Source: an archaeon 13_2_20CM_2_53_6 | GTDB lineage: Archaea > Thermoproteota > Bathyarchaeia > 40CM-2-53-6 | NCBI GenBank assembly: GCA_001915065.1 | Contig: MNDT01000053.1 | Coordinates: 1 to 33,059 of the forward strand | DNA length: 33,059 bases | Direction: 5' to 3' | Shown: positions 3,340 through 28,879 of the stretch, piece after piece | Position numbering within the stretch: the stretch's first letter is position 1 | Layout: the number at the start of each line of letters is the position of its first letter | Program-made: the position numbers and the translations under genes | Notes under the pieces: model-generated | Database searches by the model: none | The model's input: only the letters and a program-made list of their open reading frames with translations | Told to the model about the DNA's origin: nothing

Positions 3340-6300
3340 TCAGGATGCGAGTACGGGAATCTCTGGCAGTGGAGGAGTTGAGCCTATCAGCTGCTCAAAG
3401 TCTCGTCTTGCTTTTTCCATCTTTGGATAGATTACTTCTCTGAAGCCGGTGACGGCGAACTCGCTGGGCCTGTAGGGGTCGTTGATGACTCGCAGTCCTC
3501 GGAGGGCAAGCTCATAGCTCTTGTTTGCTGTCTTGAGGAAGAATCCTATCACTTCGTCGTTGTACCAGTCTCGGAATCCCAGCTCTCTCTTGTGCCATCC
3601 CCAGCGGGTAAGGATGCTCCGCGTGAATCTAGCGTGTTTGAAGATGTTCATCAGCCAGTTGTGGGCAAGCCATTGTGGAAGATTGAACCGCACCTGTTTT
3701 CCGAGGATCTCAAACTCGGGACGGTTGAGATGGACGTACTTGATCCTGTCCCCGTTCTCCTCGTCAACGTTGTATCGTATCTTGTCTCTCTCCAGCTTCT
3801 CCTCATCCGTCAGGAGTAGTGGGGTGTAAATCTCATCTTTGATCGCGTTGACCTTGGCCAGGTTCATTATCACCGTTTTGGTCGCTTGGTAATCTTTGTC
3901 GGCGCGATCGACCATGAACACTTCTAGGACCCTGTCAACGTACTTCCGAGCATAGTCTAGGCCTCCCCACATTACCATGTCGTAGACCCGCCGGGCTAGG
4001 TTCCGGTTCGTCTCCTCGTCGAGGTTCATCTTTGACACCGCGTCCTGGACGATGCTCCGGTAGGCTTCGGCGGCTGTTCTGCCTTTCCAGAACATCCAGA
4101 AAGAGTGGAGTATCGTGTCAGACTTTCTGTCCAATAACTGCTGGTAGGTCTCTTTGGCCCCGAAGAGCTGGAGAATCTTCTCGTCAGCAACGATGTTCTT
4201 GAACTCTAACAGTTCAGGCTCCACCACGAGCTTTCGTCCAAGCCGAAACGCTTCCATGTTCCTGTTTCTCTGGCTCGCGCTGACTGTCTCCATGATCGCG
4301 TCGACGAGGTTCTTCTCGCTCACTGGTATGAGGCCTTTCTGGAAGGCCATTCCGAGCAGGATGATGTTTGTGAAGAGCTTGTTACCGTAGAAGAGTTCCG
4401 ATATTTCTCCGATTCTTCCGCTAAAGTACTCGTCCGAGTTTGTATGCTTCCGAATATTGTCCTCCACATCGGATGGATAGTTCATCATTCCCGCAAGCAT
4501 CGGTATGGTTGGTATGATGCTACTGTTTACAACGGCTGTTGTCCGGGCACGGCTGGCGTAGATGAGGCTTCTCTCCGCCTCGAGCATGTCGAGGCCGACG
4601 AGCAGATCTGCTTTACCGTTGGGTACGATTGTAGATATCTTGGCTCTGTCCTTGGCGTAGTTGATGTGGGCGGATACTGCTCCGTTTCTGATGGCGAGTC
4701 CTTTCTTGTCGTTGAACTTTACGGTGTAGCCTTCCTTGGTGCCTGCTCTAGCGAGCGTTGAGGAGAGCACTCCGACCCCCATTCCTCCGATCCCGCTGAC
4801 GAAAGCGCTCCAAGTGTCAGTGAAACCGTGCTGGTTTGGGGGTGGGATATCGTCGAGGGAGATCTTTCTGACGCGGGGTCTCGGAGGCTTGTTTCTTGTG
4901 ACTATCACTTTCTCGAAGCTGGGGCAGGCCATTATCTTGGTGCAGTAGGTGTCGCTGACGCATGTGGACTGGTCTATGCCTATCTTCTCGCCATAGTCCG
5001 TGTCTATGATCGTCAGTCCCGGACAGCCGGTGTTCTTTGTGCACTCGCGACAGTTTTCGCAGACTTCTTGTGATATGTTGACGAACTCTTCGCGGGGGAT
5101 GAATCCCTGCCGATCGATAATCCGGTTTCTCTCGGCGCGTTTTCGTTTGTGGAATGTTATTCCGCATTCCTTGTCTGCGATGACTACTTTGACGCCGGGT
5201 ATGGCGAAGGCCTTGTCGAGTTCTTTCATGTACTTCTCCCGGTTTGAGGGAGGCATCTTCCTGACGTAGATCTGTCCTTGTCCCATTGCTCGGACGATGC
5301 TCTCGATGTCTTGGGCGGTGGTCTTGTCGCCCATGATGTTGTGGCCCGATTCGGGGGTGGGCTGGTGGCCGGTCATGGCCGTGTTCTTGTTTTCGAGTAT
5401 GATGTAGAGGATGTCCTGGGCCTCCTTGATGCTGTTGGAGATGGCTGTCATGCCTCTCCAGAAGAATGTCGAGTCGCCCATCAACGCGTACTGCTTGTTG
5501 GTTACGAACGGGTCCATGCCGCTCCCGGCAGCGCCGCCCAGCGCCATGGCGGTTAGGTTGTGCATCTCACCGAAGGGCGGGAGGAAGCTCATCGAGTAGC
5601 AACCGATGTCTCCGTGGGCGAAGATGTCCTTGTGAGCCGGCTCTTCTCTCATCGAGTGGACTGCGCTGAGCGTCTCTCTATGGGGACAGCCGGCGCAGAA
5701 TCCCGGAGACCGAGGAGGTACCAGTATTCCGTATGCTTTGATCTCTGTCAGGAGATCTAGTTCGCTTTGGATCTTCTTCTCATCATACTTCGCGATCCGG
5801 TCTCCGATATCGAGGATTAGTCCCCCGATCTTCTCGATGAGGGTCGAGGGAGTTAGTCCGCTCTCCTCAGGAAACCCGTCCTCGTCCTTCGGGAATACTT
5901 TTCCCCAGACGTTGGGTTCCTTGGTGATCTTTCCGTCTTGGACCATGTCTCGGAGGATTGTCTTGATCTGGTTCTCGATTATCGGCCCCTTCTCCTCCAC
6001 AACCACGATATTATCGGCGAGTTTCGAGAATTGCTCTAAGATTTCGGGGTCTATGGGGAAGGTTACGGAAAGTTTGAGGATTGGGAACTGTTCGTCGCAG
6101 CCCAGCTCCCAGAGAGCCTGTTCCAGGTAGCTGTAAGAGATTCCCGCAGCGACAAAACCGATGTTATGCTTCTTACCGTCTGAATAGAGAATCTTGTTCA
6201 GAGCATGCTCTCGAACGTACTCGTGGACTCTCGGAAAACGGTCCCGAATAATCTCCCTTTCAAGATCCCACGTGTTGGGTGGGATGCTGACTTTCCGTTT

Positions 6301-6948
6301 GATGTCGACTTTCGAGATGTCGAGGGTGATTGGGTGTTTGAAGCTGATCTCAGGGGATTTGTTCTCGTAGAGCTGAACGTTTCCACCTCCTTCGGCTAGG
6401 TAGGTTGTGATGAGGTAGCCTACGACCAGGTTCGAGTGGGCTGAGAGTCTGAGGGCTTCTCCAATCCAGTCCTTGATCTCCTGCGGATTGCTAGGTTCTA
6501 TGATGGGCATCTTCAGATGCTCCATCAACGCGCGGCTGTCTCCGGCTACCTGGGTACTGGAGGCGTGGGGGTCGTCGCCGCATACGACGACTGCTCCTCC
6601 CTTCATCCCGCTCAGACCGTACTTGTCTGAGTAGTTGATGATGTTGATGGGGTCGGCGGCGACGTTTAGTCCAACGCTCTTCATGACGGCTATCGCGTTC
6701 ACGCCTACATCCATGGCGCCACTGAGGGCAGCCGCACCCTGCGACTCGTCGTTTGTCATCTCGCCCCAGAGTCCAACCTCACGGAGAATGTCCGCGTTCT
6801 CCTCCAGAATCGTGAAGATTTCTGCTACGGGTGATCCAGGGTAGCCTGCTATGAGGCCAACCTGGCTTTCCAGTGCGCCTTTTACTATTAGCTCGTTTCC
6901 GTTAAAGGCGTCGATACCGGACTGTTGGACAAATCGCTTGTCCGACAT
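3340..6948 (-). CDS. Fused indolepyruvate/2-oxoacid:ferredoxin oxidoreductase (IorA-IorB fusion with C-terminal extension)
   Basis: This large single-chain enzyme oxidatively decarboxylates indolepyruvate or related aryl/branched 2-oxoacids to acyl-CoA. In order: a pyruvate-ferredoxin oxidoreductase-like N-terminal domain (YPGSPVAEI), a TPP domain with FCAGCPHRETL (about residue 420) and MGDSTFFWRGM, two [4Fe-4S] motifs (CENCRECTKNTGCPG and CVSDTYCTKIMACP, about 630-665), an IorB-like gamma domain (GIGGMGVGVLSS, about 720), and a long C-terminal region of some 280 residues resembling the DUF6537 tail of the fused family. The ORF track starts at 7047, but ATG 6948 gives the family-like MSDKRF start, and a TATA-like TTCTATACGG lies about 22 nt upstream, so I prefer 6948 (leaderless). 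It is read alone, divergent from the exchanger gene. Confidence 0.9.
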   Translation of the reverse strand: MSDKRFVQQSGIDAFNGNELIVKGALESQVGLIAGYPGSPVAEIFTILEENADILREVGLWGEMTNDESQGAAALSGAMDVGVNAIAVMKSVGLNVAADPINIINYSDKYGLSGMKGGAVVVCGDDPHASSTQVAGDSRALMEHLKMPIIEPSNPQEIKDWIGEALRLSAHSNLVVGYLITTYLAEGGGNVQLYENKSPEISFKHPITLDISKVDIKRKVSIPPNTWDLEREIIRDRFPRVHEYVREHALNKILYSDGKKHNIGFVAAGISYSYLEQALWELGCDEQFPILKLSVTFPIDPEILEQFSKLADNIVVVEEKGPIIENQIKTILRDMVQDGKITKEPNVWGKVFPKDEDGFPEESGLTPSTLIEKIGGLILDIGDRIAKYDEKKIQSELDLLTEIKAYGILVPPRSPGFCAGCPHRETLSAVHSMREEPAHKDIFAHGDIGCYSMSFLPPFGEMHNLTAMALGGAAGSGMDPFVTNKQYALMGDSTFFWRGMTAISNSIKEAQDILYIILENKNTAMTGHQPTPESGHNIMGDKTTAQDIESIVRAMGQGQIYVRKMPPSNREKYMKELDKAFAIPGVKVVIADKECGITFHKRKRAERNRIIDRQGFIPREEFVNISQEVCENCRECTKNTGCPGLTIIDTDYGEKIGIDQSTCVSDTYCTKIMACPSFEKVIVTRNKPPRPRVRKISLDDIPPPNQHGFTDTWSAFVSGIGGMGVGVLSSTLARAGTKEGYTVKFNDKKGLAIRNGAVSAHINYAKDRAKISTIVPNGKADLLVGLDMLEAERSLIYASRARTTAVVNSSIIPTIPMLAGMMNYPSDVEDNIRKHTNSDEYFSGRIGEISELFYGNKLFTNIILLGMAFQKGLIPVSEKNLVDAIMETVSASQRNRNMEAFRLGRKLVVEPELLEFKNIVADEKILQLFGAKETYQQLLDRKSDTILHSFWMFWKGRTAAEAYRSIVQDAVSKMNLDEETNRNLARRVYDMVMWGGLDYARKYVDRVLEVFMVDRADKDYQATKTVIMNLAKVNAIKDEIYTPLLLTDEEKLERDKIRYNVDEENGDRIKYVHLNRPEFEILGKQVRFNLPQWLAHNWLMNIFKHARFTRSILTRWGWHKRELGFRDWYNDEVIGFFLKTANKSYELALRGLRVINDPYRPSEFAVTGFREVIYPKMEKARRDFEQLIGSTPPLPEIPVLAS

Positions 6949-6965
6949 CAGACCACTTGGATATC

Positions 6966-6977
6966 CGTATAGAATGG
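6966..6977 (-). promoter_or_regulatory. TATA-like element before the oxidoreductase
   Basis: On the minus strand CATTCTATACGG lies about 22-28 nt before ATG 6948, the spacing of a leaderless archaeal gene. This supports 6948 over the longer ORF-track start. Confidence 0.35.
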
Positions 6978-7166
6978 AATAGCCACGCTGTAGATAAGCC
7001 CGCCGTTCAATTCTGAACGTAGGACAGGTCCATGGTCCAAAGGTCAACGGTTTCGAGCGACAATCCTTCGTCGCTTCTTCTACTCGACATCAGAGTGTCT
7101 TTCGAAAACTGCCCCAAAGAGTAAAGAAATAGGCCGAGAGTTCGGCGTCGAGAGAGTGCTTCCTGA

Positions 7167-10845: not shown

Positions 10846-12489
10846 CTACTTTGCAAGTAAAACTACTCGATTTTCAAGATCCTCCTCGATTCTTTGCCTC
10901 TCTCGTTTCTTCGGTCTCCCATAGCCTCCGCCTCCCGCGGTCTTGATTTCGATGATGTCTCCTTCATCGAGGATGACAGTGGTTTTCACTGGTAGTCTAA
11001 TCGTCTCTGACCGGCCTCTCTTTTTCTTGTAGAGAGAAACTTCTGTTCTCGCTCCGGGTCCGCCTCCGGAGAGCCCTTGTGGCCGGTTTCGTCCTCTCTC
11101 TGCAAGAACTGTTACTGTAATCTCATTGGTTAGTGCTTGGTAGGATCTGATGATTCCCGTGCCTCCGCGGTGGCGTCCGGGTCCGGAACTGTCAGGTCGT
11201 AGCTCGTACTGTCTGACGAGTAGTGGGTAGGATCGTTCAATCTCCTCTATCGGCGTGTTCATCGTATTGGTCATGTTTGCTTGTATGCCGTCGATGCCGT
11301 CGCGGTCGCGTTGTGCTCCGAGGCCTACTCCTATTGTCTCGTAGAAGGCCCACCTCCTTCCCCTCCATCTTCCACCCATCATGACGTTGTTCATGGACCC
11401 GCCCGAATCCGCTGGGACCTTGTCCGGGACCGCCTGGCTGAATGTGCGATATAGGAGGTCAGCGTTCCGCTGGCTCGTCTCCACGTTGCCGCCCGCCACC
11501 GGATGGGGATAGGTTGGGTTGAGGATTGTTCCTTCGGGTGCGTGGACTTGGATCGGTGCGAAGGCTCCGTGGTTTGCGGGGACATCGTCTCCTGTCAACG
11601 TTCGGGTGACGTAGTATACGCCTGAGAGGGTTACTCCGAAGACCGCGTTGAGTGGATTAGATACCTGTTTGTCGGTGCCGGTATAGTCAACTTTCAGGCT
11701 CCCTTTGGAGAGCGTGATATTGACCGACAGTAGGATATTCTCTCCGTCCGGGTCTTCGAGATAGTCTTGGGCTTGGTATGTGCCGGTTGGCATCTTTGAG
11801 AGTCGCAGCCGGGCGAGCTGCTCTGTCTTCCTCAACGACTCCGTGCAGGCTTGCCTGAATGTTTCGAGTCCGTGTTTCTTTACAAGTTCGAGGACCCTAC
11901 GTTCTCCTGTAATGTTGGCCGCTGTTTGGGCTTTGAGGTCGCCCATCCGCTCTTTTGGAGTGCGAGATCTTGAGGATAGAACTCTAACTGCGCTTTTGAT
12001 AATCCAGTTTTTCCGGATCAGGTATCGAGGGTCTATGACGACGCCTTCGTCGAAGAGAGTCTTGGCGTCTACGGATATGCTTCCTGGGACTCTGCCTCCG
12101 ACGTCGGAGTGATGAGCCTTGTTGGCGGCGTAACCTACAAGTCTGTTGGAGTGGTAGACTGGCCTGATGACGGTTACGTCGTTCAGGTGTGTCCCGGCGA
12201 TGTATGGATTGTTGACCATTATCATTGACGAAGGTTCGAGATCGATATTTTCTCTTTCGCAGTAGTCGAGTGTCCTAGCGAGTCCCCATGGCAGGGAGCC
12301 TAGATGTACAGGTATGTGTTCCGCCTGGGCGAGTAGTCTTCCCTCCTCGTCGAAGATTGCGGCCGAGTGGTCCATTCTCTCGCGGATATTGGGGCTGTAG
12401 GAGGTGTTTCGGAGGGCTATGCCCATCTCTTCGCTCGAATAGACTAGCGAGTTTCTGACGATCTCCGTCGTCGTCGGGTCCAGAAGCAT
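10846..12489 (-). CDS. hyuB: Hydantoinase B / 5-oxoprolinase-type subunit
   Basis: The 547-aa protein is a full-length HyuB (hydantoinase_B/oxoprolinase beta family): SYSPNIRERMDHSAAIFD at the N-terminus, HLNDVTVIRPVY, NKAHHSDVGGRVPGS, NVETSQRNADLL, and the C-terminal GPGRHRGGTG and AGGGGYGRPKKR. Together with HyuA these enzymes hydrolyse hydantoins, 5-oxoproline or related cyclic amides with ATP; some relatives act as acetone-type carboxylases. HyuA is not adjacent but lies 7 kb away and is damaged. Upstream in the same direction are the zinc-ribbon and S-component-like genes, so an operon with uptake of a related substrate is possible. It starts at ATG 12489. Confidence 0.88.
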   Translation of the reverse strand: MLLDPTTTEIVRNSLVYSSEEMGIALRNTSYSPNIRERMDHSAAIFDEEGRLLAQAEHIPVHLGSLPWGLARTLDYCERENIDLEPSSMIMVNNPYIAGTHLNDVTVIRPVYHSNRLVGYAANKAHHSDVGGRVPGSISVDAKTLFDEGVVIDPRYLIRKNWIIKSAVRVLSSRSRTPKERMGDLKAQTAANITGERRVLELVKKHGLETFRQACTESLRKTEQLARLRLSKMPTGTYQAQDYLEDPDGENILLSVNITLSKGSLKVDYTGTDKQVSNPLNAVFGVTLSGVYYVTRTLTGDDVPANHGAFAPIQVHAPEGTILNPTYPHPVAGGNVETSQRNADLLYRTFSQAVPDKVPADSGGSMNNVMMGGRWRGRRWAFYETIGVGLGAQRDRDGIDGIQANMTNTMNTPIEEIERSYPLLVRQYELRPDSSGPGRHRGGTGIIRSYQALTNEITVTVLAERGRNRPQGLSGGGPGARTEVSLYKKKRGRSETIRLPVKTTVILDEGDIIEIKTAGGGGYGRPKKRERQRIEEDLENRVVLLAK

Positions 12490-19324: not shown

Positions 19325-21223
19325 CTCTTCGACCGGGTCGTCAGATCAAGATTCTCGTACCCGTCGACAGTCCAAGACCAGTGCTTTCCAATCACTGTGG
19401 TCGAGTCGTATTCTTCAACGATGCACGGGCCTTTACCGTACACTCCTGCCCACAATGTCTCCCGGCTGTAGACTGGAACCTTCTGCCAGGCACCTAGCAG
19501 CGACATTCTTCTCGACGAGATAGCAGCCGGTGGTCTGGATGGTCGGAGACCCTTCTTGGCAAGTCTGGCTTTCGGAGTGGGGATAACGGCTCGTAGTCTT
19601 GCGTTTACCGCTTCCACAGTGTTAGGTCGTAAAGGCTTCTTGTTTCAACGATCTCCTTGCTCGCTCTCTCAGCTGTGTGAATGTTCTTTCGACACTGGCA
19701 GTGACAGGTCTGAGGATAGGTTGCGTGAATGTCCTAGAGAGCTCTGCCGTGAGGAGACCGAAGGCTGAGAAGAGACCTGGGTGCAATGGTATGACTATCC
19801 GCTTGATTCCAAGCTCTTCTGCCAAGTCGCAGGCGTGTAGCGGCCCAGCACCACCGAAACTGATTAGTGTGTATTCTCTCGGGTCTCGGCCGCGTTCTAT
19901 GCTCACGAGTCTGAGAGCTCTGCTCATGTTGTTGTTGACTATCCGGAGAATGCGTTCAGCCATCTTTTCGACTGATATTCCAAGCGTCCGACTCAAACGT
20001 CCGATGGCTTCGACGGCTAGATCATAGTGTAGTTGGAGATTGCCGCTTAGGAGTTGGGTGGGGTTGATTCTTCCGGCGACTATGTTTGCGTCGGTTACTG
20101 TCGCCTGTCGTCCAGCCTTGCCATATGCTGCGGGTCCCGGGTCTGCACCCGCACTCTCTGGTCCCACTTTGAGCCCTCCGGTCTCGTCTATCGATGCGAT
20201 TGTTCCGCCTCCAGCGCTCACTTCTGCCAGGTCGATGAACGGTTGTCTTACTGGGTAGCCGCTGCCCTTGATTGACCTTCCGTGGTAAGTTCTTGCTGCG
20301 GCTTCGAATTCGTAGGCGAGGTCTGGTCTGCCGTTGATGATAGTCCCTGCCTTGGCGGTCGTCCCGCCCATGTCGAAGGTGATTGCTTTCCTGCATCCCA
20401 GAACACTCGCCAAGCTCTTTGAGGCGAGGACTCCAGCTGCAGGGCCGGACTCGATAATGGAGACTGGACGCTGTGAGGCTTGCGTTATGGTACTCGCGGT
20501 CCCGTCAGAATTCATGACGTAGAGGGGACAGTGAAATCCTATCAGTCGCAGCTCTCTTTCCAGCCTTGTCAGATACTTCGAGACTAAGAGGCTGAGTACG
20601 GAGTTGACGACGGTGGTGCTTGTTCTTTCATATTCACGATACTCTGGGTCGATTTCGCTGGAAACATCAACGTGCCCACTGAAGCCTGCCTCTCTCAAGA
20701 CATCGCGCACCTTATTCTCGTGAGCTGGGTACGCGTAGGAGTGGAGCAGTGAGATGGACACTGCTTCGAATCCCGACTGAATTATTCGTTGGGCAAAGGT
20801 TCTGAGATCTTCATTGTTGAGTTGCTCGAGTTGGCTTCCATCCACTCTCATCCTTCCTCTAACAGTAAACCGATCTCTTCTCCGGACCAATGGCACTGGT
20901 CGCTGGGTCCTCAAGTTGTAGAGTTCGGGTCTTCTCTGCCGTCCGATTTCTAGGATATCTCTGAATCCCTGGTTGGTGATGAGTGCTGTCTTCGCGAGTC
21001 CTGTGCGAGTAAGGAGGGCGTTTGTGCCGACCGTTGTGGCATGGGATAGTAGCGAGACACTTTGAGCTTTTCCCTGATACCGTCTTAGCCCTTCGACCAC
21101 TGCCTTTTCCAGCTCGTTGGCGTCTGTGGAGACTTTGACGATCTCAACGTGTTGCGGTGCATTCTCGTCAAAGACGACGGTGTCGGTGAATGTCCCTCCT
21201 ATGTCGACGCCTACGTAGATCAA
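19318..21223 (-). pseudogene. hyuA: Hydantoinase A, broken by internal deletion and frameshift
   Basis: The main ORF (19622-21223, 533 aa, TTG start) has the HyuA/oxoprolinase pattern: [44 protein letters not shown] and SFGGAGPLHACDLAEELG. It stops after RSLKQEAFTT. The normal C-terminus follows at once in another frame (19318-19617): VEAVNARLRAVIPTPKARL ... VPVYSRETL ... GPCIVEEYDSTTV. Compared with the family about 65 residues (including the LRYxGQ segment) are missing at the junction, so there is a deletion as well as a frame change. Either it is a pseudogene or an N-terminal fragment still works. HyuB is 7 kb away. Confidence 0.78.
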
Positions 21224-21362: not shown

Positions 21363-21653
21363 ATGGCAAAGAAGGTCGAGGAAGCGAAGAATCCGAAGAA
21401 GCAGAGTGAGGTTGCGAAGGCGGCGAAGGGTCTCTTCTATGGGATGGCTCTGCATGGGATGGTGACCTACGCTTTGAGGTTGAGGATGCATATGGAGAAC
21501 CTGTTCATGCTGATAACCATGGGAGACATGCTGGGAATACCCGTGCTGCCTCCATACTACAGTCTCAGACTCCTGCCTTACGCGGTTCCGTCGTTGAAGA
21601 CTTGGAAGCAGACCCTGCTTAGGGATCGTGACATTACCGACTCATTATACTAG
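21363..21653 (+). CDS. Methionine-rich small protein upstream of Get3-like ATPases
   Basis: The 96-aa protein has a lysine-rich N-terminus (about 22 residues) followed by a hydrophobic/amphipathic stretch with seven methionines between residues 28 and 56 (GMALHGMVTY...RMHMENLFMLITMGDM), a proline-tyrosine segment (LPPYYSLRLLPY) and a charged end. The start ATG follows GGGAG by four bases. It is 14 nt upstream of the first ATPase and surely in the same operon. No family recognised. Met-rich helices are typical of hydrophobic-segment-binding proteins such as the SRP M domain, so client handling is a plausible but unproved role; it may instead be a small membrane protein. Confidence 0.65.
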   Translation: MAKKVEEAKNPKKQSEVAKAAKGLFYGMALHGMVTYALRLRMHMENLFMLITMGDMLGIPVLPPYYSLRLLPYAVPSLKTWKQTLLRDRDITDSLY

Positions 21654-21667
21654 TGAGGTGCCGGTGA

Positions 21668-22672
21668 ATGGCCATGAGCACTACCATCAGGGCGGACATG
21701 GCCGATTACTTTGCATCAAACCCTGAGATCAAGTACATTCTCTTCGGCGGCAAGGGTGGACTGGGAAAGACTACCCTATCAGCGGCGACGGCCTACTGGC
21801 TTGCGCGGAAGGGCAAGAGGGTCTGCGTGTTCTCAACCGATCCCCAGGCCAGTCTATCGGATATTTTCGAAAGGAAAATTTTCGGACAGGGAGAGGTTGA
21901 ACTTGCAGGCAACCTCTACGCTGTCGAGATAGACGCTGACCGGAGGATAGCAGAGTATCAGGACGAGATCAGGAACAAGATCAAGGACATGTACAAGATG
22001 GATACGATTCCCGAGGAAGTCGAGGACTACATCAACTCATCAGCAGCGGAGCCAGCCATGGCGGAATCGGCCACATTCGACGCGATGGTTGAACTGATGA
22101 CCGCTGGCAAATTCGACTATTACGTGTTCGACATGATGCCGCATGGACACGCGATAAGATTCCTGGGCATGGCTGATATTCTGGACCAGTGGGTCGAGAA
22201 AATTGTCAGCGTGAGAAAGAAAGCAGGAGAATATGGCGACGCTGCGACAGTCATGGGCAGCAAGGGAGGCTTGGCCCAAGAAGACCTTGTACTGAAAGAG
22301 CTCGAGTTCATCCGGGGAAGGCTGAACTTTGTAAGCACCATGGTTCGCGACCGCGAACATACCGCGTTCTTCTATGTTCTGATCCCGGAACTCATGCCAA
22401 TCCTAGACACGCGAAAGGCACTGGAGATGTTCCGCGAGTTCAACGTGACAGTCAGTGGAGTGGTGCTCAACCAAGTATACCCGAAGGAGCTGAGAGACCA
22501 GACGGATGTTCCAGGGTTCTTGAAGAATAAGATATCGTCCCAGCAAGAATACATGCAACAAATCCGGAACGAGTTCGGCAGTCTCATCAGAGGAACTGTG
22601 CCGATGCTTGACCGAGAACCGAAGGGCCTCAGCATGATATCGAAAGTAGCGGACATACTGTACGGACCCTAA
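21668..22672 (+). CDS. ArsA/Get3-like ATPase, first paralogue (switch-I Asp intact)
   Basis: The deviant Walker A is GGKGGLGKTT (residues 27-36) with the signature lysine that acts across a dimer; switch I is STDPQASLSDIF with Asp58, the usual catalytic residue; switch II is FDMMPHGHAIRFLG (normally DTAPTGHTLR). The rest has the family's helical client-binding region and the VSGVVLNQVYPKE nucleotide motif. Such ATPases dimerise and either drive arsenite pumps or deliver tail-anchored membrane proteins; no ArsB is nearby. ATG 21668 has GAGGTG upstream. It is six bases upstream of its paralogue. Confidence 0.85.
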   Translation: MAMSTTIRADMADYFASNPEIKYILFGGKGGLGKTTLSAATAYWLARKGKRVCVFSTDPQASLSDIFERKIFGQGEVELAGNLYAVEIDADRRIAEYQDEIRNKIKDMYKMDTIPEEVEDYINSSAAEPAMAESATFDAMVELMTAGKFDYYVFDMMPHGHAIRFLGMADILDQWVEKIVSVRKKAGEYGDAATVMGSKGGLAQEDLVLKELEFIRGRLNFVSTMVRDREHTAFFYVLIPELMPILDTRKALEMFREFNVTVSGVVLNQVYPKELRDQTDVPGFLKNKISSQQEYMQQIRNEFGSLIRGTVPMLDREPKGLSMISKVADILYGP

Positions 22673-22678
22673 TTTACT

Positions 22679-23701
22679 ATGGAGACAGCGAGACCGAGCA
22701 CATCGTTTCCGTCTTTCATAGCCGGAAAGAAGAATCTGAAGTATCTCTTCTTCGGTGGAAAGGGAGGGGTCGGAAAGACAGCAATCGCCGGCGCAACAGC
22801 ACACTATCTCTCAGAGAAGCTAGAGAGGAAGACCCTGATCTCATCCACCAACCCGGTCCACAGCCTGTCAAGCCTCTTTGGCCAAGACTTATGGAAGAAA
22901 GGGACCCAGAGGATTCAGGGAACCAAGAACCTCTATGCGAATGAGATAGACATCTCTTCGACCATAGAGAGATACAAGGGAGAGATCAAGGAACGCCTCG
23001 TCCAGTTCCTGAAGTTCGCAGATATTCCCGTCGACATTGAGCCGTTTATCGAAATCGCGACGACCAATCCTTCCTTCGAAGAGTCTGCCATGTTCGACGA
23101 CATGGTCGACTTGATCCTGAACGAGAAATATGACGCGTACATCTTCGACACAGCACCGGTTGCACATACCTACAGACTGCTGGGTATGTCTAAAGTCTAC
23201 AACCTCTGGCTCAACAAGATGATCAAGAGTCGGGAAGAGTCAATGTCTCTACGAGCAAAGCTTTCTTTCAGGAAGGAGAAGATAATTCAGGAGCTGAGAA
23301 AGGACCCGCTGCTAATCTCGCTTGCCGGGACCAAGAAGAAGACAGAGGAGGCTCGAACGCTACTCACGGACTCAGAGAAAACCGCATTCTTCTTTGTAAC
23401 GCTTCCACTAGCCCTCCCGATCGCGGTGATTGAACGGTTCATCACATGGGTCCAAGCCTTCCAGATTCCCGTCGGGGGAGTCATTGTCAACGAAGTCATT
23501 CCGAAGGCCGACATGGAAAAATTGTCGCCGTATGTCGCGAACCGGATGGAGGAACAGATGGGCTACTTGAAACTGGCCGAAGAGAAGTTTCCCGGGATGA
23601 TCCGGGCGGTATTGCCGCTGTACGAGAAGGAAGTTAACGGTCTGGAGATGGTTTCGAGGATGGCTCAAAGCCTATCTTTAGGCTCGGAAAGCAAAATCTG
23701 A
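22679..23701 (+). CDS. ArsA/Get3-like ATPase, second paralogue (switch-I Asp replaced by Asn)
   Basis: The Walker A GGKGGVGKTA (about 26-35) is normal, but switch I reads STNPVHSLSSLF, with Asn at position 58 where active family members have Asp. Switch II is FDTAPVAHTYRLLG and the nucleotide motif GGVIVNEVIPKAD is intact. It should bind ATP but may hydrolyse it slowly or not at all. Length (340 aa) and region order match the first paralogue, so a heterodimer of one active and one impaired subunit, like the two halves of bacterial ArsA, is likely (inference). The stop is followed by the CstA promoter. Confidence 0.85.
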   Translation: METARPSTSFPSFIAGKKNLKYLFFGGKGGVGKTAIAGATAHYLSEKLERKTLISSTNPVHSLSSLFGQDLWKKGTQRIQGTKNLYANEIDISSTIERYKGEIKERLVQFLKFADIPVDIEPFIEIATTNPSFEESAMFDDMVDLILNEKYDAYIFDTAPVAHTYRLLGMSKVYNLWLNKMIKSREESMSLRAKLSFRKEKIIQELRKDPLLISLAGTKKKTEEARTLLTDSEKTAFFFVTLPLALPIAVIERFITWVQAFQIPVGGVIVNEVIPKADMEKLSPYVANRMEEQMGYLKLAEEKFPGMIRAVLPLYEKEVNGLEMVSRMAQSLSLGSESKI

Positions 23702-23787: not shown

Positions 23788-25605
23788 TTGTATGAATCGC
23801 TCATAGTAATGCTGAGCGGTATCGTCGTCTACGGTATCGTCTACCAGTTCTATGTGAAATGGTTCGACAGGAGCGTCGTCCAGTCTGACCCGAATCGCCC
23901 CACACCTGCGCACACATATCTCGATGGTGTTGAGTTCTTTCCATCCAATAAGTATGTCATGCTGGGGTGGCACTGGAAAAGCATAGCCGCCCTTGGCCCC
24001 GTAACCGGTCCAGCCCTAGCAATAGTCTGGGGGTGGCTTCCCGGATTTCTCTGGATACTCATCGGAAATTCGCTACTTGGATGGTTACACGATTACAATT
24101 CGATGGTCTCATCCGTCAGGAACGAGGGCGCGTCCCTCGGACCTCTAACATACCAGCTGATAGGAACTAGGGCCAGAAAGGTCCTCGTTGCATTTCTCGC
24201 ATTCTACTCGATTCTCATCTTCTCAGCCTTCCTCGGAGCACTCCTCCCCGTCGTCAAGGGCACGGGCGCCGGAGGCGCTGCTGCGATGGTCTCATTCATC
24301 CTAATCGCAGTAATCGGAGTAGCGTCAGGCTTTTCAATATTCAGGGCCAAGATCAACGTAGTTGCGGTCACTGGAATTTCTCTCGCCGCGGTCGCCCTTT
24401 CGGTATATCTCAGCCAAGTCGTGTTTGGGAGCACGATCAACTCGGCCTTCAACTCGGCCGTTCCGAATGCACAGCTGCAGGAAGATATTCTGTTGATTTC
24501 CATGTTAGGGTTCAGCTTTCTCGGAGCGGTCTTGCCCTTGTGGAGTTTTGCCATGCCGATAAACTATCTGGGATTCTACGTGGCCTACTTCGTTATCGCC
24601 GCGATCATAGGGAGCTCCTTTGTCGCTCCGCAAACTTTCGCTCAACCTCTCTTCACAAACTGGTTCGCGCCGGTCGCGATAGGCGCTAACACGGCCGGCG
24701 CTTCCGCTATCACCTCAATCTCGTTCCCGCTATGGCCTCTCCTCTTCGTTACAATAGCATGCGGAGCATGTTCGGGTTGGCATGGACTAATCGGCTCATC
24801 ACTCTCCTCCAAGCAGCTGGACAATGAGGCTGACGCGCATTTCGTCGGTGGAGGAGGGATGCTACTGGAGGGGATCCTGGGTCTCACGTCGGTTGTAGCG
24901 GTGGGGATAATTGCCAACACGACGGGAATCGGCGCTCTGTCACTCTACGTTAAGGGAGGAGCTATTTACCTGAGCAACCTACTGATCCCGTCAGCGGCGT
25001 CAACGGCTATTATGGCGCTGATGGTCCTAATACTTGGACTTACTTTGACCCAGCTTGCCTTGCGGTTTGCCAGACTTGCAATCTCAGAAATGGTTGGGGC
25101 GCGTTTTCTCAAGAACATCTACGTGACCTCCATCATAGTGTCGATAATTACCTTCGTGCTTACAAGCTCTAGGTTCAGCGCACCGTGGGGTTTCATCTGG
25201 ACACTGTTCGGAGGCTCCAACCAGTTACTCGCAGGAGTAACACTCCTCGTCACAACACTCTGGCTAGCGAAGATAAAGAGGAATACATTCCTGACGGGGA
25301 TACCGGCTATCTTCATGCTGGGCACGACGATCGTTGCGCTGAGCTACACTGCCTATGCTACGCTCGACATTGCCGCCACGACAAACACTCCACTGAAGGT
25401 GTATGGGAATGCTGTTGCTGGTGGAATCGCTGTGATACTCACGATTCTCGGCATAGTTTTGTCCTATGACGGCTTCCGCGCTTACCGGCGGATCAGAGTC
25501 GGGGGCGTGAGCACGCCCTCGATGACTCCGGGACCGGTCCTCGCCAAGGCTGCTGGATCGGAGACGCCTAAACCAGCCTTTACCGGGGAACTCGCTGAAA
25601 CCTAG
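23788..25605 (+). CDS. cstA: Carbon starvation protein A (CstA) family transporter
   Basis: The 605-aa protein has about 16 membrane segments and the CstA N-terminal signature: TPAHTYLDGVEFFPSNKYVMLGWHWKSIAALGPVTGPALAI.. WGWLPGFLWILIGNSLLGWLHDYNSM. CstA-family proteins take up peptides or pyruvate during carbon limitation. The start is TTG, supported by a TATA box 33 nt upstream and the match at MYESLIVM. It is monocistronic or heads a short unit with the next gene. The C-terminal tail is soluble and proline-rich. The substrate is not fixed by sequence. Confidence 0.9.
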   Translation: MYESLIVMLSGIVVYGIVYQFYVKWFDRSVVQSDPNRPTPAHTYLDGVEFFPSNKYVMLGWHWKSIAALGPVTGPALAIVWGWLPGFLWILIGNSLLGWLHDYNSMVSSVRNEGASLGPLTYQLIGTRARKVLVAFLAFYSILIFSAFLGALLPVVKGTGAGGAAAMVSFILIAVIGVASGFSIFRAKINVVAVTGISLAAVALSVYLSQVVFGSTINSAFNSAVPNAQLQEDILLISMLGFSFLGAVLPLWSFAMPINYLGFYVAYFVIAAIIGSSFVAPQTFAQPLFTNWFAPVAIGANTAGASAITSISFPLWPLLFVTIACGACSGWHGLIGSSLSSKQLDNEADAHFVGGGGMLLEGILGLTSVVAVGIIANTTGIGALSLYVKGGAIYLSNLLIPSAASTAIMALMVLILGLTLTQLALRFARLAISEMVGARFLKNIYVTSIIVSIITFVLTSSRFSAPWGFIWTLFGGSNQLLAGVTLLVTTLWLAKIKRNTFLTGIPAIFMLGTTIVALSYTAYATLDIAATTNTPLKVYGNAVAGGIAVILTILGIVLSYDGFRAYRRIRVGGVSTPSMTPGPVLAKAAGSETPKPAFTGELAET

Positions 25606-25641: not shown

Positions 25642-26280
25642 TTGGTCTTCTCAGACATCGAGATCGTCGCTGCCCTAGCAACAGTTCTTGTCGTCGTCTA
25701 TTTTCTCGGGACCTACTGGAAACACAGAACTCTCAGAAGATACGCTCACTGGTTTGATGAAGGATTCTCCCGTAAGGCGAAAGTGAAGTATGCATCCTTC
25801 GGACACGCCGGGCTTAGGATCAAATGTGAGATGAACAGTTCTTCTGACGGCTTCAAAGAGCTAGAATTCGCGCTGACACTCGGCGCGAGAGAGAATCTGA
25901 TCTACTATCCATACCGTGTGGTGACGAGAGATTTTGACAAGCTGAACTGCTGGGCTGCCTTGACGGACCCGGTAAAGTTCCAGGTCGAGATTACGAGGCA
26001 GAGGAAGAAGGTGAAGGTTACCTGGGATACGGCAGGTATTGAAGAGGTCAAGAATCCACAACTCGAGGAGCTAGGCTACAGAGTCTACTCAACGGGCCCC
26101 GAATTCGCAAACCGATTGGTCGAGCGAAGTGGAGTAATTGCGAGGCTGAAAGAACTGAGCAATGTTGAGTCTCTTGAGCTTCAGGAAGAACCGTCGAGGA
26201 TCCATCTCGTGGCGCGGCTGGATATGGACGACTTGGCTAAGGTGATTGATCTTATCTCTCTGGTCGGACGGTCGATCTAG
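25642..26280 (+). CDS. Membrane-anchored protein of unknown function
   Basis: The protein has one N-terminal membrane segment (IVAALATVLVVVYFLGTYW) followed by about 185 soluble residues in a mixed alpha/beta pattern with no recognised motif. The start is TTG, 36 bases after cstA, so it may be in the same transcript. The end shares a CTAG with the convergent thioredoxin-like gene. The soluble part probably faces the cytoplasm. Confidence 0.6.
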   Translation: MVFSDIEIVAALATVLVVVYFLGTYWKHRTLRRYAHWFDEGFSRKAKVKYASFGHAGLRIKCEMNSSSDGFKELEFALTLGARENLIYYPYRVVTRDFDKLNCWAALTDPVKFQVEITRQRKKVKVTWDTAGIEEVKNPQLEELGYRVYSTGPEFANRLVERSGVIARLKELSNVESLELQEEPSRIHLVARLDMDDLAKVIDLISLVGRSI

Positions 26281-26705
26281 CGAGGGACCTGAGTCGAGGC
26301 CAAATGGCCGGAGAGCTCCAACGCTTCTAGTATCTTTGCTCTCAGCTCGTCATAGCTCGGAAGCTTGCTGAATAGCTTCTTTCCCTGAATCAATATGCAA
26401 GGGGTCTTCAGGATTCGGTGTCTGATCGATAACCAGACGCCTTGCGGCGATGCAGAGTCCACTGGGTCGAATACTACCCTGCCGTCGAACTCTGCCTTGA
26501 GCTTCTGGGCGATCTCTGAGAGCTGGAAGTATTGTTTCTTGACATCTTCCGGGTAGCCTTCCAGCTGTTCCGAGTAGGGAGCCATGCCGGTCGCGTGCAT
26601 TACCTGCATACAGTGTTGGCAGTGAGCGAAGAGCGTGGGCATGATGCCGACAAAAGTAACCTTCAAGGGACCACCGCCCCGTGAAGAGTATTGGCCTGAT
26701 CTCAC
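26277..26705 (-). CDS. Thioredoxin-fold protein
   Basis: The 142-aa protein has LKVTFVGIMPTLFAHCQHCMQVM, a strand plus CxxC pattern (CQHC) of the thioredoxin fold, with VVFDPVDSASPQGVWLSIRHRILKTPCILIQGKKLFSKLPSYDELRAKI forming the second half, including the cis-proline (TPCILI). It may act in thiol redox or as a thiol-dependent subunit. The GTG at 26705 is about 27 nt from a TATA element on the minus strand, so the gene is probably leaderless; TTG 26666 is a possible alternative. Confidence 0.65.
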   Translation of the reverse strand: MRSGQYSSRGGGPLKVTFVGIMPTLFAHCQHCMQVMHATGMAPYSEQLEGYPEDVKKQYFQLSEIAQKLKAEFDGRVVFDPVDSASPQGVWLSIRHRILKTPCILIQGKKLFSKLPSYDELRAKILEALELSGHLASTQVPR

Positions 26706-27225: not shown

Positions 27226-27852
27226 ATGGTGCTTAGAGAACTCCTCATCCCTAGAGAGAAGATCTTCTTCCAGCTCTTGGAGCAGGAATCCAAGAACGTG
27301 CTCGCAGGGGCCCATGCACTGAATGATCTCATCCAGAACTTCGACCGGTTGGCTGAGAAGCGGAACAAGATAAAAGACATTGAGCATGACGGGGACAACA
27401 TCGTTCATTCCATCTGGGACCATCTGGTCAAGACGTTCATCACTCCCATCGACAGAGAGGATATCAGCAAACTCGCCTCCCTCTACGATGATGTTCTCGA
27501 CTACATCGAGGCAGTCGCCAACCGTCTGTACCTGTACGAGGTCCGCTCTCCAACCGAACCCATGAAGAGGTTTACGGATATAGTGGTAAAGTCCGTGCAG
27601 GAGATCGACTTCGCCTTTGCGAGCATTCAGAAGATCAAGGCGCCCGAGGTGGAGAGCAGGATCATCGAAGTGGACAGGTTAGAGAATGAGGCTGATGTGG
27701 TACTCAACGAGTCAGTCGCAGCACTTTTCAAGACCAATGATGCGATAGCGATCATCAAGCTGAAGGAGATCTATGAGCTGATGGAGACGATCACGGACAA
27801 GTGTGAGGACGTTGTGCAGGTGATCCGCGACATCATTCTCGAATACTCCTAA
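27226..27852 (+). CDS. DUF47/PhoU-like phosphate transport regulator
   Basis: The 208-aa all-helical protein has the DUF47 (PhoU-related) pattern: FFQLLEQESKNVLAGAHAL, IEHDGDNIVHSIWDHLVKTFITPIDREDI and DLL/ENEAD segments, ending ELMETITDKCEDVVQVIRDIILEYS. It regulates or gates the adjacent low-affinity phosphate transporter (13 nt downstream), a widely conserved gene pair. No PstSCAB is in the window. Confidence 0.9.
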   Translation: MVLRELLIPREKIFFQLLEQESKNVLAGAHALNDLIQNFDRLAEKRNKIKDIEHDGDNIVHSIWDHLVKTFITPIDREDISKLASLYDDVLDYIEAVANRLYLYEVRSPTEPMKRFTDIVVKSVQEIDFAFASIQKIKAPEVESRIIEVDRLENEADVVLNESVAALFKTNDAIAIIKLKEIYELMETITDKCEDVVQVIRDIILEYS

Positions 27853-27865
27853 CCGAGAAAACCCG

Positions 27866-28879
27866 ATGTCGACGGTAATAGTTCCCTTCGCGATAGTTGT
27901 ACTGGTCGTTATTGTCGCCCTGTTTTTCGATTTCATGAACGGCTTTCATGACGCCGCCAACTCGATAGCAACCGTAGTCTCAACCCGGGTCCTTACGCCT
28001 AGACTAGCAGTGCTCTGGGCCGCCTTCTTCAACTTCGTCGCCGCCTTCCTCTTCGGTGTAAACGTTGCTTCTACAATCGGAAAGGGGACGATCGATCCGA
28101 GTATCGTGACAGCCTGGCTTCTCCTAGCAACCCTGCTAGGCGCGACCGCCTGGGACATCATAACTTGGTGGTTCGGCCTACCCACGAGCTCTTCACACGC
28201 GCTAGTCGGCGGGCTCATCGGGGCAGGCGTCGTAAAGGGAGGATGGGGAGTAGTTCAAGTTGCGGGAGTGAACAAGATACTCCTCTTCATCATCCTCTCT
28301 CCACTCATCGGCCTATTGGCCGCGATAGGCCTCGTCCTTTTGACGGCTCGAATCGGAATGCATTTCCACCGTTCAACAGCGGACCACGCTTTCCGTCGCC
28401 TCCAACTCGTATCCGCAGCCCTCTACAGTCTGGGACACGGAACGAATGATGCTCAAAAGACGATGGGCATCATCGCCGCACTACTTTTCGCGCAAGGTAT
28501 CCTAGGCCCGAGCTTCTACGTTCCGTACTACGTCATAATAATGGCTGGAGTCGCCATGGGCTTGGGAACATGGTTTGGAGGCTGGAGAATAGTCCGGACT
28601 ATGGGCATGAAGATAACAAAGCTCCACCCTTTCGGCGGCTTCAGCGCCGAGACCGCGGCGGCATCTACCCTCTTCGCCACCGCATCTCTGGGCATTCCGG
28701 TGAGTACGACTCACACGATCGCGGGAGCCATAATGGGCGTTGGTGCCACTAGACGACTGTCAGCGGTAAGATGGGGAGTGGCAAGGAGAATAGTCTACGC
28801 ATGGGTCTTGACAATACCAGCAGCGGCCGCGATCGCAGCACTCCTTTACTCTCTCCTGTCCCTTGTAGGGTTGAGATAG
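27866..28879 (+). CDS. PiT-family inorganic phosphate transporter
   Basis: The 337-aa protein has two copies of the PiT signature: FDFMNGFHDAANSIATVVSTRVL near the start and GHGTNDAQKTMGI in the middle, with SSSHALVGGLIGAGV and STTHTIAGAIMGVGA as the paired helical hairpins. It imports phosphate (or metal-phosphate) with H+ or Na+. It is co-transcribed with the DUF47 gene. Confidence 0.95.
   Translation: MSTVIVPFAIVVLVVIVALFFDFMNGFHDAANSIATVVSTRVLTPRLAVLWAAFFNFVAAFLFGVNVASTIGKGTIDPSIVTAWLLLATLLGATAWDIITWWFGLPTSSSHALVGGLIGAGVVKGGWGVVQVAGVNKILLFIILSPLIGLLAAIGLVLLTARIGMHFHRSTADHAFRRLQLVSAALYSLGHGTNDAQKTMGIIAALLFAQGILGPSFYVPYYVIIMAGVAMGLGTWFGGWRIVRTMGMKITKLHPFGGFSAETAAASTLFATASLGIPVSTTHTIAGAIMGVGATRRLSAVRWGVARRIVYAWVLTIPAAAAIAALLYSLLSLVGLR

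Follow-up and report, generated by a model that had tools for sequence, protein, structure and literature searches.

Gene Organization of the Locus

In the window, that is, the whole analysed stretch of 33,059 nucleotides of DNA from a soil archaeon, three closely spaced open reading frames lie on the + strand at 21363–23701, where the initial annotation had placed three genes, and their presence is borne out by open reading frames and family profiles. The first, cstX/cory-1 (21363–21653, +), encodes a small protein of 96 aa that appears to be a divergent relative of the cory-CC-star family; it contains 8 Met in 96 residues, in keeping with its description as Met-rich. The second, A1 (21668–22672, +), encodes a single-domain ArsA/Get3-like ATPase of 334 aa that carries STDPQAS and is predicted to be a hydrolysis-competent subunit, and the third, A2 (22679–23701, +), encodes a sister ATPase of 340 aa that carries STNPVHS and is predicted to be an ATP-binding, hydrolysis-deficient subunit; the two ATPases had been described as equal in length, and they are near to each other in this respect but not identical. 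In a Pfam scan, these two larger proteins matched PF02374 with E-values of 2e-70 and 5e-62, and both also match TIGR00345, each exceeding the curated cut-off. A1 and A2 are the sole strong ArsA/Get3 proteins in the source genome, which is about 80% complete.

The unit exceeds these three genes, and two further genes belong to it. The gene for CstA, a protein of the carbon-starvation/pyruvate-peptide transporter family (23788–25605, +; PF02554, E 4.5e-96; TTG start as called), begins 86 bp past A2 in the same direction; the substrates of E. coli CstA are pyruvate or peptides. It is followed by a gene for a CstY-like protein of 212 residues (25642–26280, +), which has one hydrophobic helix, with its hydropathy maximum of 2.4 at the N terminus, and whose homologues adjoin the unit in most loci, of the pair type (two ATPase genes) as well as of the single type. 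On the opposite strand, a convergent thioredoxin-like gene with a CQHC motif (26277–26705, −) gives a weak match to NF047660, and its membership of the unit is uncertain. In several families of archaea, thioredoxin-like relatives also stand beside the unit (loci L006, L047, L062, L063, L065, L069, L070, and L146), often convergent with an overlap of a few bases; CQHC is the motif of the source archaeon's group, and the thioredoxin-like protein may be a further partner of the CstA–ATPase unit.

Among the 19 window proteins scanned with Pfam, none is ArsB, Acr3, ArsR, or ArsD, and the remark in the initial annotation that no arsenite pump gene is nearby holds within that set; the absence of such a pump masked a different transporter next door, CstA. 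The metalloid-binding cysteines of E. coli ArsA are residues 113, 172, and 422, while A1 contains a single Cys, at residue 53, A2 contains none, and there is no conserved Cys column in either clade. A role in arsenic resistance is ruled out by the absence of these cysteines and of ars genes among the proteins scanned.

Elsewhere in the window, hydantoinase A-like (19622–21223, −) and hydantoinase B-like (10846–12489, −) genes share a strand and are separated by about 7 kb, and a protein of 1235 aa (3340–7047, −), with TPP-enzyme C-terminal, pyruvate-ferredoxin-oxidoreductase gamma-type, and DUF6537 domains, resembles a fused indolepyruvate ferredoxin oxidoreductase. At 27226–28879 (+), a gene for a PhoU-like protein (DUF47) precedes one for a PHO4-family phosphate transporter, and the two form a small protein-plus-carrier pair adjoining the CstA unit.

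The Small Protein of the CstX Type

The small protein matches NF041419 with an E-value of 9e-8 and 32 bits against a curated cut-off of 80, and it ends in ...DSLY, with no C-terminal Cys-Cys. Judged by its sequence, it is a divergent cory-CC-star/CstX relative and no formal member of the family. It aligns with bacterial cory-CC-star proteins that adjoin CstA, and 36 of its 44 archaeal relatives match NF041419 (E up to 1); size and position suggest that CstX and the NF041419 family are one and the same. Bacterial cory-CC-star proteins and YbdD, the short partner of E. coli CstA, share a Cys-Cys at their ends. Profile comparison gives no support for homology between the small protein and YbdD, with hhalign probabilities of 0.9 and 1.6%.

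Orthologues of the small protein lie upstream of A1 in every pair-type locus, and most pair-type operons contain two forms, cory-1 (beside A1) and cory-2. In the small-protein tree, cory-1, cory-2, and the proteins of single-ATPase operons form separate groups, with weak support of 63–92. When searched with a cory-2 profile, the source genome and five other unit-bearing genomes of its genus lack the second gene; as a control, the profile found two copies in a genome from the same order, and each of the six genus genomes yielded one. Orphan cory-2-type proteins were also observed (L053, 7671–7955; L064, 6822–7208), where the stretch analysed has neither an ATPase nor CstA, and each of the two genomes has a complete or partial unit elsewhere.

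Residues 47–65 of the protein are moderately hydrophobic (1.36); this stretch is central and has conserved Asp, Pro, and Arg within or beside it, and there is no C-terminal anchor. It is possible that the small protein acts as an adaptor and unlikely that it is a client.

Division of Asp and Asn Between the Two ATPases

STDPQAS and STNPVHS both begin at residue 56 of their proteins, which places Asp58 in A1 and Asn58 in A2, exactly as first noted. In a survey of 84 aligned ATPases, comprising A1, A2, and single-copy proteins, STDPQAS is found in 29/29 A1 orthologues and S[TLF]NPVHS in 34/34 A2 orthologues, while every CstA-linked single-copy ATPase that was read keeps the Asp, as do two bacterial ATPases read from Pseudochrobactrum and Cytobacillus plasmids. 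The initial annotation had named Asp in close relatives of A2 as the sign of a sequencing error; Asp occurs in 0 of the 34 A2 proteins, and since Asn is universal in A2 and Asp in A1 and in the singles, the substitution is not such an error. Sequencing error and recent decay are both ruled out by the fixation of Asn across 34 orthologues with a mean pairwise identity of 56% (minimum 41%) and by the occurrence of both Asn codons, AAC and AAT, among them. Because 68 of the 320 A2 columns are invariant at this mean identity, one invariant site is not extraordinary by itself; from the alignment, the significance of this one is that it marks a fixed shift away from the catalytic letter.

Switch II differs as well. 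Its canonical form, given by Castillo and Saier (2010), is DTAPTGH (PMC2963123), and A1 retains its Gly-His, while A2 reads FDTAPVAH in the source archaeon's group and mostly FD[TMC]AAVAN elsewhere. Both A1 and A2 retain the P-loop, signature Lys included, and an Asn whose role is adenine selection (PMC10248533), so that of the two Get3 landmarks, the P-loop Lys and the switch I Asp, A1 has both and A2 has the Lys, with Asn in place of Asp. It has been reported that yeast Get3 D57N binds ATP and does not hydrolyze it (PMC12506534). Since the P-loop and the adenine-selecting Asn are kept and switches I and II are both altered, A2 should, by homology, bind ATP yet hydrolyze it poorly, and there is good reason to expect a hydrolysis-deficient subunit.

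In the ATPase tree, which comes from a quick search with long branches flagged, all A1 proteins form one clade (SH-aLRT 99), all A2 proteins form another (100), and the two are sisters (94), with the single-copy ATPases falling outside both. In this tree the pair goes back to a single duplication: A1 and A2 represent two ancient sister clades, for which one duplication and one Asp-to-Asn change would suffice. Within the source archaeon's genus the unit occurs unevenly, being present in 6 of 18 sampled genomes (the source genome included; some of the others are incomplete). Elsewhere, one genome, G129, has the single-ATPase form, while several members of the genus group to which G129 belongs have the pair. 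A1 is broken into two reading frames in the otherwise complete units L048 (2984–3984) and L061 (7284–8289), as is the single ATPase of L112 (7562–8553), also in an otherwise complete unit; these split frames are either assembly errors or true disruptions.

Genomic Linkage to CstA

The order small protein–A1–A2 recurs across Thermoproteota, an outcome that the initial annotation had proposed to check. Thermoproteota were sampled with 250 genomes; when the small protein is called by its NF041419 match, it is present in 28 and CstA in 54, and all 28 genomes with the small protein have CstA (hypergeometric P about 2e-22, a figure that ignores relatedness); the two genes are nearly always a few kilobases apart or less. 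Across about 60 loci, the gene order places CstA beside the small-protein and ATPase genes in pair-type and single-ATPase operons alike, and the same CstA–CstX–ArsA linkage is found in bacteria. Because this linkage survives several gene orders and orientations, which vary among loci, it argues for function rather than mere inherited order. CstA is linked at all pair-type loci with enough flank except one (L060, in genome G200), where it lies about 35 kb from the pair in the same genome; the other exception among the pair loci is L149, where the contig ends. Most CstA genes without an NF041419 match have as neighbors a single ATPase gene and one for a small protein of greater divergence, and a minority of Thermoproteota CstA genes (for instance L120, L122, and L123) have neither an ATPase nor CstX nearby. 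It is very probable that the unit works with CstA.

Proposed Mechanism and Alternative Explanations

The three genes would make up the ATPase half of an operon for the CstA transporter, cstX(cory)–A1–A2–cstA–cstY. A1 and A2, derived from one old duplication, would be obligate partners in a heterodimer that resembles the two halves of ArsA in shape, with ATP bound at both sites across a common interface and hydrolyzed solely at the A1 site (Asp58), while A2 (Asn58) would hold ATP in a structural or allosteric role, in the manner of ABC transporters that have one degenerate site. The heterodimer would act on CstA at the membrane through the small CstX protein as a link, and the outcome would be that uptake of the CstA substrate is driven or gated. 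Taken as a whole, this reading seems reasonably likely. An asymmetric heterodimer had already been suggested in the initial annotation, and it is the best reading of the pair because the intact and the Asn-substituted copies are always found together; on this pattern in the sequences, A1 and A2 probably do form a heterodimer.

Since A1 and A2 share one frame, the stop between them could be read as a residue to give a single chain of 677 aa for structure prediction, a computing device only. The resulting model (mean pLDDT 72.7, pTM 0.53; alignment of 19 rows) aligns over its full length to ArsA in Foldseek, with the closed, ATP-bound 9nbo as the best match (TM 0.78 by target, rmsd 7.6 Å). The resemblance of the model to the ArsA pseudodimer is of low confidence, and the fit is weak because fusing the chains favors such a pose. 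In a model of a CstA homologue with the small protein, CstA was well predicted, the small protein had a pLDDT of about 30, and no usable contact was obtained between them; contact of the unit with CstA is putative. A fold search with the CstA homologue model found LeuT-type transporters as the nearest solved folds.

What the ATPases would do to CstA can be read in more than one way. The pair could regulate or assemble CstA, with ATP binding gating or stabilizing a proton-coupled carrier and supplying no energy. E. coli CstA requires the 65-aa partner YbdD for pyruvate uptake and functions with no ATPase (PMC5847655); hence the CstA family does not depend on ATP drive. The CstA genes of L120, L122, and L123, which stand apart from any ATPase or CstX, point the same way, as does the predicted LeuT-like fold, which is common among ion-coupled carriers. 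Against this stands the precedent of ArsA–ArsB, in which a carrier is made ATP-driven (PMC2963123). A pair with a purely regulatory or assembly role is rather unlikely. Direct energizing of CstA, as opposed to its regulation, is a guess that falls a little short of an even chance. The fuller version, in which a heterodimeric ArsA-type motor with two diverged CstX proteins turns a LeuT-fold CstA into a primary transporter, is a tentative and rather doubtful proposal. The source archaeon's lineage lacks the second small protein, and this counts against the explanation preferred here.

A GET-like machine for membrane-protein insertion, in which the small protein serves as client or adaptor, had been offered in the initial annotation and is now improbable. 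The closest solved structures to A1 and A2 by sequence are indeed archaeal Get3 (3zq6, 3ug6), and the small protein is moderately hydrophobic, but its hydrophobic stretch is not a tail anchor, CxxC occurs in none of the aligned A1, A2, or CstA-linked single ATPases, and the close and conserved genomic tie is to CstA. The absence of CxxC is shared by some Get3 relatives (PMC5382584). Separate A1 and A2 homodimers with distinct jobs, A2 being a pseudo-ATPase in some other role, would agree with the homodimers or tetramers of archaeal Get3 relatives and with the homodimers suggested for ArsA homologues by Castillo and Saier (PMC2963123), but they are likewise improbable, given that A1 and A2 always occur side by side with one Asp and one Asn, and that the singles, which must self-pair, always retain Asp.

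If the favored obligate Asp/Asn heterodimer exists, it would be a natural, evolutionarily stable counterpart of the D57N trap employed in GET studies, and it would offer a ready means of testing what each ATP site contributes in Get3/ArsA machines. Because single and paired forms occur in related organisms, a symmetric and an asymmetric machine can be compared, and the 2010 proposal that ArsA energizes CstA becomes directly testable. Were the two-CstX primary transporter to prove true, it would amount to an ArsAB-like solution whose parts come from separate genes and in which labor is inherently divided between an active and an inactive subunit.

Comparison with Known Systems

The link between CstA and ArsA is already known, and the conserved unit is a variant of the operons of Castillo and Saier, not an insertion system. 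As described in the available part of their 2010 paper, ArsA homologues occur in operons with CstA and CstX (about 90 aa), archaeal versions add CstY (about 210 aa, one transmembrane segment), and ArsA was proposed to energize CstA with CstX as a linker (PMC2963123). The present unit is alike in having single-domain ArsA proteins of about 330 aa (here 334 and 340 aa) beside cstA, a CstX-sized protein (96 aa), and a CstY-sized protein (212 aa) with an N-terminal hydrophobic segment. In the same part of the paper, adjacent ArsA pairs are reported in cluster 15 from Pyrobaculum arsenaticum (334 and 327 aa), which has two CstX paralogues, and from Symbiobacterium, and it is said that only Asn may replace the motif Asp; the text available there does not tie Asn to the second member of a pair, and it reports cluster 15 without CstY, whereas the ATPase pairs found here come with CstY (PMC2963123). 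No later study of the ATPase pair was found in the open-access literature, and, within that scope, what seems to be new is the invariant Asp/Asn division, the single origin of the pair, the duplication of the small protein in parallel with the ATPases, and the presence of CstY next to ATPase pairs.

ArsA of the ArsAB system likewise has two ATPase units, one interface, and a separate carrier protein, but it is one fused chain with metalloid-binding cysteines, whereas here two genes encode proteins that lack them. Get3/TRC40 shares the ATPase fold, a P-loop that carries the signature Lys, and the switch regions; it differs in its CxxC zinc dimer motif, while A1 and A2 have no CxxC, carry Asn in one subunit, and are linked to CstA. 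The E. coli CstA–YbdD system also combines CstA with a short partner, but no ATPase is present there. Mycobacterial BagA–BagB (Rv3679–Rv3680), which form a complex, with both chains in PDB 6bs3, are similarly encoded by two adjacent Get3-like genes, with weak sequence similarity to A1 and A2.
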